From IMG/VR virus record IMGVR_UViG_3300043436_003473, positions 1 through 27,483 of that record: a stretch of DNA of 27,483 nucleotides. One strand, 5' to 3'. Under the pieces are notes generated by a model. The model did no database searches. It had not been told where the DNA came from and saw nothing but the letters and a program-made list of their open reading frames with translations. Below are positions 9,992 through 18,411 of this stretch, in pieces. Source of the stretch: a virus. Numbering within the stretch: position 1 is the stretch's first letter; every line of letters starts with the position of its first letter. Both the position numbers and the translations under genes were made by a program.

Positions 9992-10489
9992 ATGAAAAAA
10001 GTAATTAAACTATCTGAATCAAAACTTACTGAATTAGTTAAACGAATCATGTCTGAACAAGATAATGAAAGATATATGTTTTTCAGTAATTTAGAACAAA
10101 TTCATAGACAAACAGGTTTGTTATTGGAATTAAATAAAAATACCGTTGAAGGTGTTTTAGATGGGGGTCATGATTGGGCTCAAGACCATTTATCAACCGC
10201 AAAAGAAAATATTGACCAAGTTTTTGATTTCATGATGAATGAAACTAAAAATGAAGACAATATGAATGTTTTAGAACAGGACTACTCGACTGACGTTGAA
10301 AGACCCACAAGTGATAGAGAACGTCAAGCAAAATCTTTATTTGGTGACAAATATGGTGCATATATACCTAATGATGTTATTAGGTACATAAGAAAAAATC
10401 CTGCACAATTCTTTAAACGACTCTACCAAATGTATGGGGACAAAGCTTATGAATATTTAGATAAATCAAAAAATAAAGGGGAAAATTAA
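9992..10489 (+). CDS. Phage protein with amphipathic N-terminal peptide
   Basis: A 165-residue protein beginning KKVIKLSESKLTELVKRIMSEQ. This is an amphipathic basic peptide of a kind that recurs at the start of structural-region proteins in T4-like phages of Bacteroidota and cyanobacteria. The next segment (ERYMFFSNLEQIHRQTG ... GGHDWAQDHLSTAKENIDQVFDFMMNE) resembles a conserved hypothetical domain of such phages, and the end contains IRKNPAQFFKRLYQMYGDKAYEYL. The leader ends in IMSE|Q, which does not exactly fit the [L/I]-x-E rule seen in the other leaders. It is the last gene of the rightward structural cluster and is followed by a terminator. Confidence 0.65.
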   Translation: MKKVIKLSESKLTELVKRIMSEQDNERYMFFSNLEQIHRQTGLLLELNKNTVEGVLDGGHDWAQDHLSTAKENIDQVFDFMMNETKNEDNMNVLEQDYSTDVERPTSDRERQAKSLFGDKYGAYIPNDVIRYIRKNPAQFFKRLYQMYGDKAYEYLDKSKNKGEN

Positions 10490-11027: not shown

Positions 11028-12017
11028 TTAAAACATATCTTCTAATTTATCTAAATGTTTTCTAACAATATCCAAATCACTTATATCAGTATAGGTCATT
11101 CCTTGTTTTTTTAACATTTTAACATGGTTATGTAATTGTGTCATCATTTGTCTAATCATTCCGGACATTGTTGGGTAATTTTCAATCATCTTATCTAAAA
11201 AATAAACTTGTTCAGGTAAGTTTAGAACATTACCAATTTTTTTAACCCATTCTTTTCCATATTTATCAGCATCCATTTCCATATCCCAATAAATTTTGTA
11301 AAACTCCTCAAAGTCTTCAATATCTCCCATGTAAGAATCTTTCAAATTAAATTCCGACATTTGTTGTTCATGTTTCAATTCGTGAAATAAAACATATACA
11401 AATGATGCAAAATTTGAGAATGACTCAGGTGAACATATAATAATCGCCTTACTTGTTCGAACTCCTTGAAATCCTGTGTTACAGGCATTCAATACTTTTA
11501 TTGTATACCCCCTATCTTGAACATAATCTTTTATTTTACTAACGATTAAATCAAACGCTTTATATTTGTCTTCAGGAATGTCTTTTCTAAATTTATCAAT
11601 AACCCTTTCATAATTTGAGGTAGTTTTTAGACCGTTTGGGATGATATCTTCTAAAATCGTATCTTTGGTTATCTCAAACCATTCCGTTACAATAGGGACT
11701 ATCTTTTTCTTCCCACCGGGTGTTTGATTTAACACACCGCCTTCTTCATCATTGTCTTCAGGATGTTTTTTCACATATTTAGAAATTTTTCTAGACTCTT
11801 TTTCTATTTTTGCAATTTTATTCTTTGGTGTACTCATTTTACCATCATAACTATCAAACGCTAATTCTGCACTATCATACTTTGATGTTGGAACAATAAA
11901 GGGTTGTAATTGCTCTTTATTGAAAAGCCTAACACCAGGACTCATCGGAACTCTAAATGAACCCGAACCACCAGTACCTGTAGCTTCTTTAATTTGTTTT
12001 TTGTTATTTTTATCCAT
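11028..12017 (-). CDS. HExxH zinc metallopeptidase with capsid-type leader
   Basis: The start is taken at 12017 (MDKNNKKQ) rather than the in-frame ATG at 12035, because the promoter-like TATTTAT lies between them; this gives 329 residues. Residues 9-12 read IKE|A, a T4 gp21-type cleavage site, and the following ATGTGGSGSF (12-21) copies the pattern after the capsid protein cleavage site (ATSDGSSGSF). The catalytic part has FHELKHEQQ with His212, Glu213 and His216 of an HExxH zinc motif. About 30 residues on is MEMDADKYG, where Glu247 with Asp251 fits the ExxxD third-ligand motif of gluzincins such as M48 or ImmA-like peptidases. It is probably packaged in the head as a matured protein and may be injected. 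Substrate unknown. Confidence 0.75.
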   Translation of the reverse strand: MDKNNKKQIKEATGTGGSGSFRVPMSPGVRLFNKEQLQPFIVPTSKYDSAELAFDSYDGKMSTPKNKIAKIEKESRKISKYVKKHPEDNDEEGGVLNQTPGGKKKIVPIVTEWFEITKDTILEDIIPNGLKTTSNYERVIDKFRKDIPEDKYKAFDLIVSKIKDYVQDRGYTIKVLNACNTGFQGVRTSKAIIICSPESFSNFASFVYVLFHELKHEQQMSEFNLKDSYMGDIEDFEEFYKIYWDMEMDADKYGKEWVKKIGNVLNLPEQVYFLDKMIENYPTMSGMIRQMMTQLHNHVKMLKKQGMTYTDISDLDIVRKHLDKLEDMF

Positions 12018-12023
12018 ATACTT

Positions 12024-12030
12024 ATAAATA
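12024..12030 (-). promoter_or_regulatory. TATTTAT element, candidate late promoter
   Basis: The leftward strand reads GTATATTTATAAGTATATGG, ending 6 bases before the chosen ATG (12017). Read rightward the same site is TATAAATA (12023-12030), 15 bases before the ATG at 12046, so it could serve both diverging genes. Confidence 0.5.
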
Positions 12031-12045
12031 TACAAAATTTTAATT

Positions 12046-12279
12046 ATGGAACAACAACAACAAGAACTATTCGGAAAATTATTTAATACTATCCCATTAT
12101 ATAATGAAGACCATTTAGACGTACTACTATCAACAATGGATAAAGAACAATCAATCTATATTCTAACTCAAGCCGTTAGTTTTGCATTTCACTCAGGCGT
12201 GTTTTCATTGGGGGAATCAGAAATTATTTCAAAATCAATAAGAACATTAAATAAAATTGAAAAAAATGTTGTGGGATAA
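12046..12279 (+). CDS. Small hypothetical protein
   Basis: A 77-residue helical protein (MEQQQQELFGKLFNTIPLYNEDHLDVLLSTMDKEQSI...), with no motif that I can name. It is divergent from the metallopeptidase gene with only 28 bases between starts and precedes the secreted-protein gene in the same direction. It contains no signal peptide or membrane segment. It is part of a two-gene rightward island inside the leftward head cluster. Confidence 0.6.
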   Translation: MEQQQQELFGKLFNTIPLYNEDHLDVLLSTMDKEQSIYILTQAVSFAFHSGVFSLGESEIISKSIRTLNKIEKNVVG

Positions 12280-12319: not shown

Positions 12320-12592
12320 ATGAAAAAAATATTCTTATCACTTTTACTTATTGTAAGTCTATCCTCATTCTCTCAAGATAACCCAAAACCAAAAAACATT
12401 GATAAAGGTATCAATGTTTTGTTAGATTCGTTATCCAATGTTTATCGTGTTAAAGTAGGTGCGGTCATTGTTAATGATTACCCAAACTTAAGAACAACAA
12501 CAATCGTTTATGTTAAAAATGGTGAATTAGTTAAAAAAATTATTAAAACTGAAAAAAATCCACCAAAACGAGATATATTAAGTAAAAATTAA
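12320..12592 (+). CDS. Small secreted protein with Sec signal peptide
   Basis: A 90-residue protein starting MKKIFLSLLLIVSLSSFSQD, a clear Sec signal peptide. It has two lysines, a hydrophobic core and an SFSQ end of the sort very common in flavobacterial exported proteins; cleavage is probably before or at Gln19. The mature part, about 70 residues, is basic and soluble, with a beta-hairpin-like stretch (RVKVGAVIVNDYPNLRTTTIVYVKNGELVKK). It would be exported to the periplasm during infection and could act in superinfection exclusion or lysis timing, but nothing in the sequence decides this. A housekeeping-type promoter lies upstream. Its 3' end overlaps the convergent gene by 4 bases. Confidence 0.75.
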   Translation: MKKIFLSLLLIVSLSSFSQDNPKPKNIDKGINVLLDSLSNVYRVKVGAVIVNDYPNLRTTTIVYVKNGELVKKIIKTEKNPPKRDILSKN

Positions 12593-13746
12593 ATTGTTTT
12601 ATTACACAGTGCGGTAACACTATATCCGGTTTTAATTGTATCAGTACCAATTGGTGAATAAACTCTAACAATTGATTCTCCTGATGAACTATTGAAATTT
12701 ATTTTAATAGGTGCCTCTCCTATTGTATAAATAACAAATTCTTTAACACCTTTATTACAAAGTTTTTGAAGGTCTTTTAAAGCATATTCTACTTCAATTC
12801 CACCTCTTTTAAATGTTTTTGATTTGGATGGGTCAACTAAAAGTTGTTCCAATAACTCTTGATAATTATTTGCTGTTATTTTTACAAGTTTATCACCACT
12901 AACTGACACATTATTTCTTGAATTTATAAGAGTTAATTGATAAACATATAATGGGACCCATTTAAAATCAACATATTTATGTGGTCTAGTCGTCACATAA
13001 CCAGTGTCTTGAATCACCTCTTCCCCCTTATTAAGAACAACTAATCTATCGGGAATGGTTCCGGTATCAAAAGTTACAACACCATTACCATATAATTTTT
13101 CATTAGTTAATACATAATTAAGACTTGCATCTCCTTGACCCGCCTCAATTTTTACACCAACCCAATTACAAATATCTTTGGAATCTTTATCTTTAACTTC
13201 CCCCGTTCCTTTAATATCGAAATTAACAAACTGTTCTTGTTTGTATAATTTAATTTTTTCAGGGTTTTTATTATCACCTTTAGTCTTATCATACGGAGTT
13301 TTACCTAATGTAACTTGATTAACATCTGTTGGAACTTGGATAGTTAAAACACCATTCTTGATTAAATCAGGAAATATCTCCTGAAAATATTTTTTAACCG
13401 AATTTGCTCTTGCCAATGCCAAACTTCCCTTTGTCTCATATCCTTTAGGATTCGTCACATTTGATTCTCCAGATGTTATATTAACTATAAATGTCTTACC
13501 ACCATTGTCTTTAATAAATTTTTCAATCTGAGGTTTTAATGCGATAATATCGTTTTTAACGGTTGGGGAATCAATCTGACCAAACCCAAATTTATCTCCA
13601 ATACTTTGTATTGGGAATTCTGTGTTAATCAACGATTGTTTTGTAGAAACTTGTTCCAGGTTTAAATATTGTCGTTTTGTCGCGCCTTCGTGAAGATTCA
13701 TTATTCTATTTCTTTCCTCACTAGATATCTCAAATAAATTATTCAT
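12589..13746 (-). CDS. OmpA-like domain protein with cleavable head leader
   Basis: The start is taken at 13746 (MNNLFE), not 13770, because TATTTAT lies between the two ATGs; this gives 385 residues. The first 20 residues (ISSEERNRIMNLHE) end at LHE|G, fitting the [L/I]-x-E|[A/G] prohead-protease rule. Residues about 65-178 resemble an OmpA C-terminal peptidoglycan-binding domain: FIVNITSGESN, then KGSLALARANSVKKYF (the LSxxRAxxVxxYL helix) and an end strand QFVNFDIKG. The rest, about 185-385, looks beta-rich and is unknown. There is no signal peptide, so it should stay in the cytoplasm and enter the virion. It follows the capsid gene after a terminator, with its own promoter-like element. 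Confidence 0.6.
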   Translation of the reverse strand: MNNLFEISSEERNRIMNLHEGATKRQYLNLEQVSTKQSLINTEFPIQSIGDKFGFGQIDSPTVKNDIIALKPQIEKFIKDNGGKTFIVNITSGESNVTNPKGYETKGSLALARANSVKKYFQEIFPDLIKNGVLTIQVPTDVNQVTLGKTPYDKTKGDNKNPEKIKLYKQEQFVNFDIKGTGEVKDKDSKDICNWVGVKIEAGQGDASLNYVLTNEKLYGNGVVTFDTGTIPDRLVVLNKGEEVIQDTGYVTTRPHKYVDFKWVPLYVYQLTLINSRNNVSVSGDKLVKITANNYQELLEQLLVDPSKSKTFKRGGIEVEYALKDLQKLCNKGVKEFVIYTIGEAPIKINFNSSSGESIVRVYSPIGTDTIKTGYSVTALCNKTI

Positions 13747-13760
13747 ATTTTTCTTTTTAT

Positions 13761-13767
13761 ATAAATA
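13761..13767 (-). promoter_or_regulatory. TATTTAT element, candidate late promoter
   Basis: The leftward strand reads GTATTTATATAAAAAG, ending 14 bases before the ATG at 13746 of the OmpA-like gene. Confidence 0.55.
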
Positions 13768-13805
13768 CATTATTATTTATTTAAACTTAATATTTGTGCA
13801 TAAAA

Positions 13806-13851: not shown

Positions 13852-15708
13852 TTATCTCAATTCTCTTAAATCGAATGTTCTAACACCATCTACAGTAATT
13901 CTTCCGTAAAATCTGTTGTTCACCATTTTTTTCGCGTAACGAGTCATTATACCTTTAATCGGTGTAAAGTTGAATGGGTTGTACATTGTTGGTGTTAATT
14001 GTAATGGTACATACGGTGCGTAGATGTATCCTGTGTCTAACAATGATGTTCCTTTGTGTCCAATTAACACTTGGTTAGCTGGGAAGTAAGGGTCACGGTA
14101 AACTTGGTAACGTCCTGCTAATGTTCCAACTCTTTCAATACCCATGTTATATTGGTCTTGTTCAGGAGAAGCATTAGATACGTGGAAGTACTCTAAATCA
14201 TCAAAGATAGCAGAAACCTCAGAAGATACAACAATCCAGTTTGCTCCACCTCTTAAAGTAGATTTGTGGATTTGTGCAGACAATTGGTTAATTGCTGTAA
14301 TTAATGTTTGGTTCCAATCTTTTTGAGTGTAAGAAGTTACTTGAGAAATTCTTCTCCAACCATTGTAATCCCATCTCAAGTTCCATGCAGCACCTTTACG
14401 TAAATCTCTTAAGATTTCACGGTCAATTTCTGCCGCAACTTGCTCAGATAATAAAGCTGTTAATTCAGCTTCAGCATCGATGTTGTGGAAAGCTGCAACG
14501 TCTTGAGCTAACTCAGGAGACCATTGTGCTCTTAATTTTCTTTCTGTAACTGATACAGTAACTGAATCTAAATCGAAAGAAACCTCACCGATTTTATCTT
14601 CAAATTCTAATTCTTCATAACGTCTGAAAACAGCTTTAAATGAAGTTGTTGCTAATGCTTCAGAAATAGTTGTACCTGTGTAACCATCTAACGATGAAGA
14701 ATCACAATCAGCACATACTGGACAAGATAAATCAACTTCTAACCAAATACAACCATCAACGTCACATACATTTTTGAATGAACCACCGTTACCAGTAGAT
14801 GCAAATGTTGTTTGAGTTGTGTTACCATATTTCACAATACCTCTACCATAGATTTGAGTTACAACTCTAAATAATAAAGCTCCTGTAGATACAGCACATG
14901 GTGAACTAGCGTCAACTGTTAAACCAGCTCCTGTATAGATAATTAAATCAGATAAGAATGATTCAGTATCCATTTCGTTACCATCAGGTCCGATTAATTT
15001 TCCTGCACCTGTGTCAGCAAAACCACACATTTTAATGATAACTTTTCTTGTGTTACCTGAAGCAATTACTGCTGCTCCATCAGTTGTTCCTGAAATAACT
15101 GCATCAACTAAAACTCCACCTGTCCATTTTTGGATAGTTGTTGTTGCTGTGATAGCTGACCAACGACCTTTAGAATAATCAAATAATCCTGGTGGGTCTA
15201 AACTTGGTTCGTTACCTTCATAGAATAAATCATAAAGATTTTTTTCATATACTGGGTTGTTTGAGCCTGAACCTGCTGTGTAACCTTCACTTGGAGAACC
15301 TGGATAATTTCCTGGAGACCCGATTGGTGCGTAGTGCTCACCTGAATACTGACCGTCAATACCGTCTTTGTATCCTTGAATTTTTGGTACAAAATAGAAT
15401 AATTTACCGATTGGTAAGTTCATTGCTTGTACAGAAACGATATCATTCGCTAATAATTTAGAGAATACTCTTCTTACGATAGGAAATACAACAGTTTCAA
15501 ATGAACCTGAAGACCCGTCAGAAGTTGCTTCGTTTATTAAGAAAGACGCTTGGTTCTCATATAATTGAGCTACGTTTTCTCTTAAGTGACCTTTAAGACC
15601 TTCAAGAAATCCTAATTTGTCCCATTTGTTGATTGTGTCTTCTTTAATAACTTTAAGGTGTTTTAACCCGATGTTACCAACTAGACCTGATTCTAATAAT
15701 GCTCCCAT
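13852..15708 (-). CDS. 23: Major capsid protein, T4 gp23 type
   Basis: A 618-residue T4-type major capsid precursor; T4 gp23 has 521. Residues 1-60 form a helical propeptide ending FLINE|A, which parallels the T4 gp23 site FLTE|A, so cleavage after Glu60 is expected. The shell part contains VRRVFSKLLANDIVSVQAMNLPIG (79-101) and RAQWSPELAQDVAAFHNIDAEAELTALLSEQVAAEIDREIL (393-433), matching the gp23 spine and axial region. An insertion at about 225-345 carries cysteines C315, C320, C329, C332 and C335 (CPVCADC). The gene is less AT-rich and more regular in codon use than its neighbours, as for a highly expressed protein. It sits directly after the scaffold gene, as in T4, and is followed by a terminator. 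Confidence 0.95.
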   Translation of the reverse strand: MGALLESGLVGNIGLKHLKVIKEDTINKWDKLGFLEGLKGHLRENVAQLYENQASFLINEATSDGSSGSFETVVFPIVRRVFSKLLANDIVSVQAMNLPIGKLFYFVPKIQGYKDGIDGQYSGEHYAPIGSPGNYPGSPSEGYTAGSGSNNPVYEKNLYDLFYEGNEPSLDPPGLFDYSKGRWSAITATTTIQKWTGGVLVDAVISGTTDGAAVIASGNTRKVIIKMCGFADTGAGKLIGPDGNEMDTESFLSDLIIYTGAGLTVDASSPCAVSTGALLFRVVTQIYGRGIVKYGNTTQTTFASTGNGGSFKNVCDVDGCIWLEVDLSCPVCADCDSSSLDGYTGTTISEALATTSFKAVFRRYEELEFEDKIGEVSFDLDSVTVSVTERKLRAQWSPELAQDVAAFHNIDAEAELTALLSEQVAAEIDREILRDLRKGAAWNLRWDYNGWRRISQVTSYTQKDWNQTLITAINQLSAQIHKSTLRGGANWIVVSSEVSAIFDDLEYFHVSNASPEQDQYNMGIERVGTLAGRYQVYRDPYFPANQVLIGHKGTSLLDTGYIYAPYVPLQLTPTMYNPFNFTPIKGIMTRYAKKMVNNRFYGRITVDGVRTFDLRELR

Positions 15709-17685: not shown

Positions 17686-18411
17686 TTAATGACCTAAATA
17701 ATCGTTTAATTTTTTCATTAAGTCAAGTGATTTATTACCTGAATTACCAACATGTCTTTCAACACTCATTCTTTTCTCTTCATCTAAGTTTTCATCATAC
17801 AAACTTTTATCCTCTTTATTTAAAAATAGGTATGCTCCCGGTGTTGAAGGTGAAGACACTAAGTCAAAACAAATTAATTCAAAATCATCTTGTACTTCGT
17901 TTTGGTCACCAATTTTTTTAAGTGACCCAACACCCCTTGATGATATACCTAAAGTAACTCCTTGTCTTAAGTAATTTGCAGCTAAATCTCCTTTAGTTGA
18001 ACAGATACCTCTTTCATGGTAACCCGGTGATGTCAATAATTTAATCTTTCCCATTAAGACGTTACCTTCCCACCATACTTCAGTGATTGCATGAGAAACT
18101 CTATCTAAATCAATTAGTGATGATTCCGGGTGATTTAACTCTGATAGAGCAGTACCCTTTTTAATCATTTTTTTATAATTCTCAGATTCTCTTTTTAATA
18201 TACGTTCAGGGTATAATCTACCATTTCTATTTGGGGTGTCATATTTTTGTAATACGGCATAAAATTCAAATGGTTTTGAGTGGTCCAACATCTCGCTAGA
18301 TTCTCTAATTAAAGTTTCGTTACGATTATCCTTTGGGTTAATATAACCCGCATCGTATTCAACTAATATACCTTTTCCTGATTCATTCGGTTGTAATATT
18401 TTTAAACTCAT
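17686..18411 (-). CDS. 21: Prohead maturation protease, T4 gp21 type
   Basis: A 241-residue serine protease of the T4 gp21 kind, with the herpesvirus assemblin-like fold. The diagnostic motifs are present in order: YDTPNRNGRLYP (about 57-68), ELNHPESSLIDLDRVSH (91-107) with catalytic His94 in the NHP motif, and TLGISSRGVGS (153-163) with the catalytic Ser in GISSRG at 157/158. It should cut scaffold, capsid propeptide and head-internal proteins after [L/I]-x-E inside the prohead. Its position upstream of scaffold and capsid genes is as in T4. A TATTTAT element lies 16 bases before the ATG. Confidence 0.92.
   Translation of the reverse strand: MSLKILQPNESGKGILVEYDAGYINPKDNRNETLIRESSEMLDHSKPFEFYAVLQKYDTPNRNGRLYPERILKRESENYKKMIKKGTALSELNHPESSLIDLDRVSHAITEVWWEGNVLMGKIKLLTSPGYHERGICSTKGDLAANYLRQGVTLGISSRGVGSLKKIGDQNEVQDDFELICFDLVSSPSTPGAYLFLNKEDKSLYDENLDEEKRMSVERHVGNSGNKSLDLMKKLNDYLGH

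Follow-up and report, generated by a model that had tools for sequence, protein, structure and literature searches.

The Locus and Its Neighborhood

The window examined here, one whole virus record with a length of 27,483 bases, carries on a common strand Pfam-recognized genes for a Gp23 capsid protein, an S77 prohead protease, a Gp20-type portal and terminase, together with the gene of a putative zinc metallopeptidase of the zincin type (Table 1). To judge from these head genes, the window is part of a T4-like phage. The zincin gene lies about 1.8 kb downstream of the capsid gene, and a TTG at 12035 provides another possible in-frame start. An identical protein is encoded in seven IMG/VR contigs, one of which (318 kb; G001) was surveyed with other window-lineage relatives, including G002. 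ORFs (447 in G001) were called on 20-kb pieces with 1-kb overlaps, a procedure in which long ORFs crossing the borders may be missed.

Table 1. Features at the zincin locus and among the neighboring head genes (positions in the window)
Feature	Position	Strand	Remarks
Zincin gene with capsid-type leader	11028..12017	-	ATG at 12017; 329 aa + stop
Zincin domain, residues 131-329	11031..11627	-	AlphaFold domain-only model, pLDDT 82.6, pTM 0.80
EMDAD, residues 247-251	11265..11279	-	Predicted third ligand E247
HELKH, residues 212-216	11370..11384	-	Predicted zinc ligands H212 and H216, predicted general base E213
Carrier module, residues 12-108	11694..11984	-	Predicted disordered; homologous to the sister-carrier N-terminus
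Predicted leader MDKNNKKQIKE, 11 aa	11985..12017	-	Cut expected after E11
TATTTAT, promoter-like	12024..12030	-	-13 from the zincin ATG
Small divergent gene	12046..12279	+	Homolog in sister locus L227, similar one in L228; synteny marker
Major capsid protein (Gp23 family)	13852..15708	-	PF07068 E 2.6e-74; inferred cut LINE↓A
S77 prohead protease	17686..18411	-	PF03420 E 1.2e-23; expected processing enzyme

In the 22 window-lineage loci read, the TATTTAT element stands at -13 from the zincin start in 20 and at -16 in two; in loci of the sister lineage it is found at -11 (L136, L139) or -12 (L138) and is absent in L140. Within -45 to -8 it precedes 57 genes out of 336 in G001, where 9.9 would be expected, and 55 out of 328 in G002, where 8.3 would be; the expectation comes from single-base shuffles of each 37-base stretch and the zincin's own element, at the edge, falls outside the count. 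The portal, protease and scaffold-like genes are preceded by it; the capsid gene is not. This candidate promoter possibly signifies late expression of the zincin. The T4 late promoter TATAAATA has 12 matches in the window against 7.24 expected, and 10 of 100 shuffles score as high. Across the window, G001 and G002, TATTTAT lies mostly 20-25 nt before start codons and is about sixfold commoner than in shuffled sequence.

A Conserved Domain of Probable Zincin Type

The HExxH motif and downstream ExxxD motif from which the initial annotation had read a zinc metallopeptidase are strictly conserved. In an alignment of 26 homologs (A3), H212, E213, H216, E247 and D251 are all invariant, and a pattern test finds HE..H and then E...D in 26/26 proteins. 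A wider scan of viral contigs gave 160 relatives, of which the best 80 loci (L144-L223) were kept, comprising 55 distinct proteins; HExxH and ExxxD are present in 55/55. The two sets overlap by five genes (L136-L140).

In the full-length AlphaFold model, residues 1-132 have pLDDT <50 and are predicted to be disordered, HELKH falls within a predicted helix at 203-222 and EMDAD within another at 233-265. For the zincin fold, which the initial annotation had proposed seeking by structure prediction, the comparisons point both ways. Alignment of the domain-only model with VIA-align returns numerous rows named as zincins, with ArdC (6sna) as the top row (Z 6.2, rmsd 5.3, 118 residues) and, further down, PprI (8sln; Z 5.5, rmsd 4.2, 93 residues), IrrE (3dti; Z 5.3), BepA (6ait; Z 5.0), Spartan (6mdw; Z 4.4, rmsd 4.1, 100 residues), selecase (4qhj; Z 4.2) and Wss1 (5xbn; Z 4.1), and Foldseek against viral models (BFVD) places two phage proteins of SprT-like type first (probability 0.99; E 0.027 and 0.048). 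Against these stand a Foldseek search of the PDB with the domain model, which returned nothing at E<=0.001, and a designed helical protein at Z 5.7, on a par with the zincins, so that unrelated helical proteins score alike and Z values that nowhere exceed 6.2 may reflect just a common arrangement. We take the domain to be a zincin from motif and fold matches together, neither being proof alone; the predicted metallopeptidase is supported by conservation and by a zincin-like model of modest fold scores.

At the level of sequence the family is remote from described ones. The window protein has two Pfam rows, both under their cut-offs, with DUF6782 at 13.8 bits against a gathering threshold of 27; PhageMetallopep (PF18894) gave it no row at E<=1, PHROGs nothing at E<=0.001 and NCBIfam nothing at E<=0.1. 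Across the 26 proteins at E up to 1, DUF6782 matches 21 and PhageMetallopep 16 (best E 0.0037), and PHROGs rows for these relatives are weak and scattered. The domain model aligns to zincins of the ArdC, IrrE/PprI and SprT/Wss1 types, but a PDB sequence search with A3 found no significant match and one chance row (E 0.45). In SprT zincins the third ligand differs. Searches of phage isolates turned up a single row at E 1 and another four at E 4-7. When bacterial and archaeal genomes were scanned, 143 pattern matches emerged with no relatives among them, so that at this sensitivity the zincin family appears to be phage-only.

The Leader and the Modules Behind It

Both the 11-residue leader ending in IKE↓A and the LINE↓A context of the capsid protein are present as first described: the zincin begins MDKNNKKQIKE↓ATGTGGSGSF and the capsid context reads FLINE↓ATSDGSSGSF, the arrow marking the expected cut. 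Leaders in the window lineage are 10-11 residues long. In 20 of the 21 window-lineage rows of A3, the leader ends, at residue 10 or 11, in an IxE site with T or S one residue on, and in the remaining row (L130) the assigned start is too late, the true start giving the same leader reading; all rows with two modules have a second IxE site (8/8). The 28 sites so counted have K, N or D at P2 and, at P1', most often A (15) or N (10), otherwise G, S or V. Since the site pattern requires I.E, the IxE in them holds by construction, and the informative counts are the 20/21 leader-end sites and the 8/8 second sites. Two extra ITE sites near the zincin domain (L032, L107) lie outside the 28.

Relatives carry the first module, the second (IKE↓NTTSSSGEYNGP), both, or a remnant, and the boundaries of these changes coincide with xxE↓ sites both for insertions and for one deletion: a single in-frame gap of 309 nt between L032 and L033 ends at two IKE sites, and in the sister family the extra domains of L151 and L180 are flanked by the leader on one side and a second xxE site on the other (KIITE↓TV and IKITE↓SV). 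In four proteins (L042-L045) leader and modules are retained but the zincin domain is missing; FHExxH was sought on both strands of all four loci and found in none. Leaders of similar type also occur on other proteins, one with a peptidoglycan-binding domain, which counts against a role in head packaging.

The near-identity of the zincin N-terminus to the string after the capsid cleavage site, emphasized in the initial annotation, holds for the window phage and less well beyond it. The pattern [ILVM]xE[AGNS][TS]x(1-5)[GS]G[SAEQ][FYV] occurs in two of the 447 ORFs of G001, those of the capsid protein and the zincin, whereas 200 shuffles gave 0.055 on average and never more than 1, and the two segments align with a score of 54, reached by none of 2000 zincin shuffles (best 46). 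The strict pattern finds no ORF in G002. A looser pattern, widened after this result was known, recovers capsid and zincin in both genomes (in G001 the same two ORFs, in G002 three sites), but with a mean of 0.475 and a maximum of 3 in shuffled sequence it is weak on its own. In G002 the best non-capsid match to the capsid segment is another protein, with the zincin outside the best eight, and the sister capsids read LINE↓ASSTSDTGAF (9/10) or LINE↓ASTSSDTGAF (one), so that the literal string is partly particular to the window phage. Sister carriers mostly read xxE↓ATGSGSAG or close to it, and the proposal that the zincin N-terminus is a copy of the capsid string is weakened by these differing capsid and carrier readings. 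The more general feature is an IxE↓ preceding a small residue and T or S.

Exchange of Bodies and Leaders in Sister Phages

The window capsid protein served as query against twelve records of the wider family, ten of which gave full matches at 76-79% identity; G015 (no capsid match) and G017 (25 residues only, at the record end) were left out of the sister set. Downstream of the capsid gene, at a distance of 306-3023 bases and on its strand, every sister record (10/10) has a protein of 229-297 aa bearing a carrier module that reads E↓ATGSGSAG or close to it; BLASTP of one such carrier (L239) matches residues 5-93 of the window protein at E 2e-17. At L227 a homolog of the small divergent gene of Table 1 (BLASTP E 5e-17) lies between the carrier and capsid genes, in the order seen in the window. 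Nine of the ten sister carriers have 8-10 leading residues ending in [IL]xE. The tenth (G007), with a GTG start, reads VKDIIRKIIKE↓VSGAGLAGSY, the leader type otherwise found on sister zincins.

The body of the sister carrier is not a zincin (LKE↓DLAVWFG...GPWVNIC...CGR). In L238 it matches Pfam DUF5872 proteins of G001 and G002 (BLASTP E 2e-20 and 6e-23); the Pfam DUF5872 model itself covered none of five carriers at E<=0.01, and the link is that BLASTP match. This DUF5872-like body is part of the carrier in the ten sister records and has a gene of its own in five records of the window lineage, while the carrier, joined to a zincin body in the latter five and to a DUF5872-like body in the former ten, places its leader on unrelated bodies. 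The separate gene starts MK[VL]IITERQ in G001, G002 and G004; in G003 and G006 the match starts at the same residue and the open frame extends further upstream. In eight sisters, the first half of the separate-gene protein weakly matches a small frame near the carrier. One zincin was found in each of these records (15/15), a number that is a lower bound because the records are fragmentary or of unknown completeness. Among phage isolates the DUF5872-like body has matches in seven records, including three Pelagibacter phages and one Prochlorococcus phage, as hypothetical proteins in six and with no annotated feature in one; neither the domain of the third gene nor the leader with zinc ribbon had a match among the isolates.

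Within one clade, then, leaders and bodies have been re-paired, and this re-pairing is the strongest evidence for reading the zincin as head cargo.

The sister carriers L235-L244 also have a C-terminal tail, NESLxDLIxKVLRE or close to it, that resembles the N-terminal leader of sister zincins, as if the address helix may be usable at either end of a protein. The zincin-less protein of L042-L045 ends in a tail of similar appearance.

Zincin Genes of the Sister Phages

In the sister lineage the zincin locus sits by a ClpA-type gene, away from the head genes. Of the 55 distinct members from the best 80 of 160 relatives, 53 have a ClpA/ClpB-type pattern upstream, within the flank examined, and 52 have an M20-like peptidase pattern nearby. 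The ClpA-type gene that was tested (L136:3939-5954) contains Pfam AAA_2 and ClpB_D2-small. The neighborhood of ClpA/ClpB-type AAA+ protein, zincin and M20-like peptidase is conserved in L136, L138, L140 and most of the 55 loci, with an Hsp20-like pattern present in some.

The same 55 proteins (best 80 of 160) comprise 36 with a leader, 17 without and 2 fragments. The leader is mostly M[KR]xLIRKILxE, with E at position 11 in 35/36 and I, L, V or F at position 9 in 35/36, while positions 10 and 12 vary, as the [ILV]xE protease rule predicts; the exception is L189, MRNLIKE↓N. As the sister-family leaders resemble one another, the 35/36 are not 35 independent cases. This tally left out the 17 leaderless proteins and the fragments L171 and L192, and for it the starts of L169 and L214 were shifted to a downstream GTG. 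In 18 proteins of this set (best 80 of 160) the leader is followed by a CxxCG pair resembling a zinc ribbon.

A quick tree of 70 proteins, from which the leaderless L193, L198, L212 and L213 and the two fragments were left out, recovers the window lineage as one supported clade. The leaderless state needs one change, with a group support of only 29, and the zinc-ribbon label at least 6 changes by starred branches. A view of the leaderless forms as degenerate is not supported, their active-site residues being intact.

A Head-Cargo Model and Its Alternatives

A leader following the prohead-protease rule, on a carrier of exchangeable bodies near the capsid gene, is best explained as head cargo. 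The zincin is probably such a cargo, targeted to the prohead, relieved of its leader by the S77 protease and kept in the head as a mature enzyme. The leader and the disordered carrier module would bring it into the prohead, the S77 protease would cut after IKE (E11), and the mature zincin would remain in the head, from which it would exit with the DNA or in which it would act. Elsewhere zincin and carrier are separate: the sister carrier has another body, and the zincin lies at another site, either behind a different leader that obeys the rule or leaderless. The sequences themselves, their conservation, the synteny, the body exchange and the indels at xxE↓ sites are observed; the time at which the enzyme is expressed, its targeting, cleavage, packaging and delivery, and its metal binding and proteolysis are what the model infers from them. 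The proposal of packaging through a cleaved leader, as first made from the window, is thus retained in a qualified form: the sister carrier, a second leader obeying the [ILV]xE↓ rule and the indels at xxE↓ sites argue for it, but the leaderless relatives (17/55, best 80 of 160) argue against obligatory packaging.

That the same enzyme stands on a different tag in close relatives suggests interchangeable cargo travelling inside the particle. More tentatively, then, these jumbo phages may possess a system of exchangeable head cargo in which a few leaders and carriers, each ending in an [ILV]xE site, are re-paired during evolution with various bodies, among which are the zinc peptidase and a basic protein of DUF5872-like type, some of the cargos being tandem polyproteins. 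In the tandem forms the prohead protease would cut the internal xxE sites to give separate packaged chains.

The most serious competitor, though we consider it rather unlikely, is that the zincin, brought into the prohead by this leader, serves there as an auxiliary maturation protease, acting on scaffold or core substrates during assembly and not in the next host. The position of its gene among head genes in the window lineage agrees with this, and PMC7824862 proposes a possible maturation role for an uncharacterised zincin of other jumbo phages; yet an S77 protease is already encoded, and in the sister lineage the gene lies away from the head genes and is sometimes leaderless. That sister locus invites another explanation, in which the zincin would be the cytosolic partner of a ClpA-type unfoldase in a two-part ATP-dependent metalloprotease, with the leader as docking peptide instead of capsid address. 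The upstream ClpA-type pattern in 53/55 (best 80 of 160) and the AAA_2 and ClpB_D2-small domains of the tested gene favor such a pairing, but by eye, in the 40 nt upstream of the zincin, a GC-rich inverted sequence and a T run lie between the two genes (L136, L138, L139, L140), with TATTTAT after the inverted sequence in three of these four, and the window-lineage zincin lies elsewhere although G002 retains a ClpA gene. For G001 the piecewise ORF caller, which can miss long ORFs crossing the borders of its 20-kb pieces, lists no ClpA ORF. We regard this partnership as improbable.

We give still less credence to the possibility that the N-terminal part is a structural head protein and the fused zincin a passenger without a function in the head. 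The proteins of L042-L045, with leader and modules and no zincin domain, would fit such an arrangement, as would the occurrence of the carrier with two different bodies, but active-site residues kept in 26/26 and 55/55 proteins (the latter from the best 80 of 160) are unexpected for a functionless passenger.

Relation to Known Packaging Systems

The window zincin and the T4 internal proteins are alike in a short leader ending in [IL]xE before a small residue and in the presence of an encoded S77-family protease. They are unlike in that the putative window system has an enzyme body and a longer carrier module, and in that relatives of the window zincin show tandem modules and bodies behind unlike leaders. 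Among T4 head proteins, gp24 begins MAKINELLRESTTT (MAKINELLRE↓STTTNSNS), which resembles IKENTT of zincin relatives, and gp23 has FLTE↓AEIGG; we take FLTE↓A and LLRE↓S to be the cut positions in gp23 and gp24, respectively. Alt, an enzyme that according to a database record note is present in the capsid and enters the host, may be likened to the window zincin. As a vertex protein and an ADP-ribosyltransferase, gp24 and Alt have bodies unlike the zincin, and homology is not claimed.

Extracts of PMC9026906 describe the T4 proteins IPI-III as diverse bodies targeted by a short N-terminal leader, of 10 residues in IPIII, that is cut by the prohead protease, and extracts of PMC5694885 describe A-x-E cutting and propeptides in SPN3US. 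Moraphages, aquatic jumbo phages, have a core that in extracts of PMC12619734 includes major capsid, prohead core protein protease, ClpA, PhoH-like protein and a "putative peptidase"; kinship of the window phage with them would be a guess from gene content alone. Among the matches listed (titles and abstract openings) in literature on prohead proteases, phage metallopeptidases, internal and ejection proteins, jumbo and Bacteroidetes phages and DUF5872, the protein is unreported, and the same titles and abstract openings hold no report of leader exchange of the window type.

If the head-cargo model is correct, uncultured jumbo phages would use the T4 manner of packing by a short cut leader as a modular route of delivery, and packaged proteins could be proposed from sequence alone by their leader type and xxE sites. 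The zincin would then be a candidate enzyme brought with phage DNA to cut host proteins or, alternatively, a candidate for an unsuspected second protease inside the head.

Other Leader-Like Sequences

Leader-like N-termini are also seen on two further window genes, at 9992-10489 (+; MKKVIKLSESKLTELVKRIMSE↓Q) and 12589-13770 (-; ISSEERNRIMNLHE↓GATKRQYL). A tag of the MKxIITE type starts 18 of 363 ORFs of at least 70 aa in G001 and 18 of 354 in G002, compared with 1 of 1709 and 4 of 1736 internal methionines, respectively; some of the tagged ORFs reach an [IL]xE, and the tag may be another leader class. A protein of G001 (205723-206496) and G002 (124351-125217) has a KFPYCNQGDI stretch and internal E[AS]TGSGS[SA]G strings that resemble the capsid and zincin sites, and is perhaps a prohead substrate.
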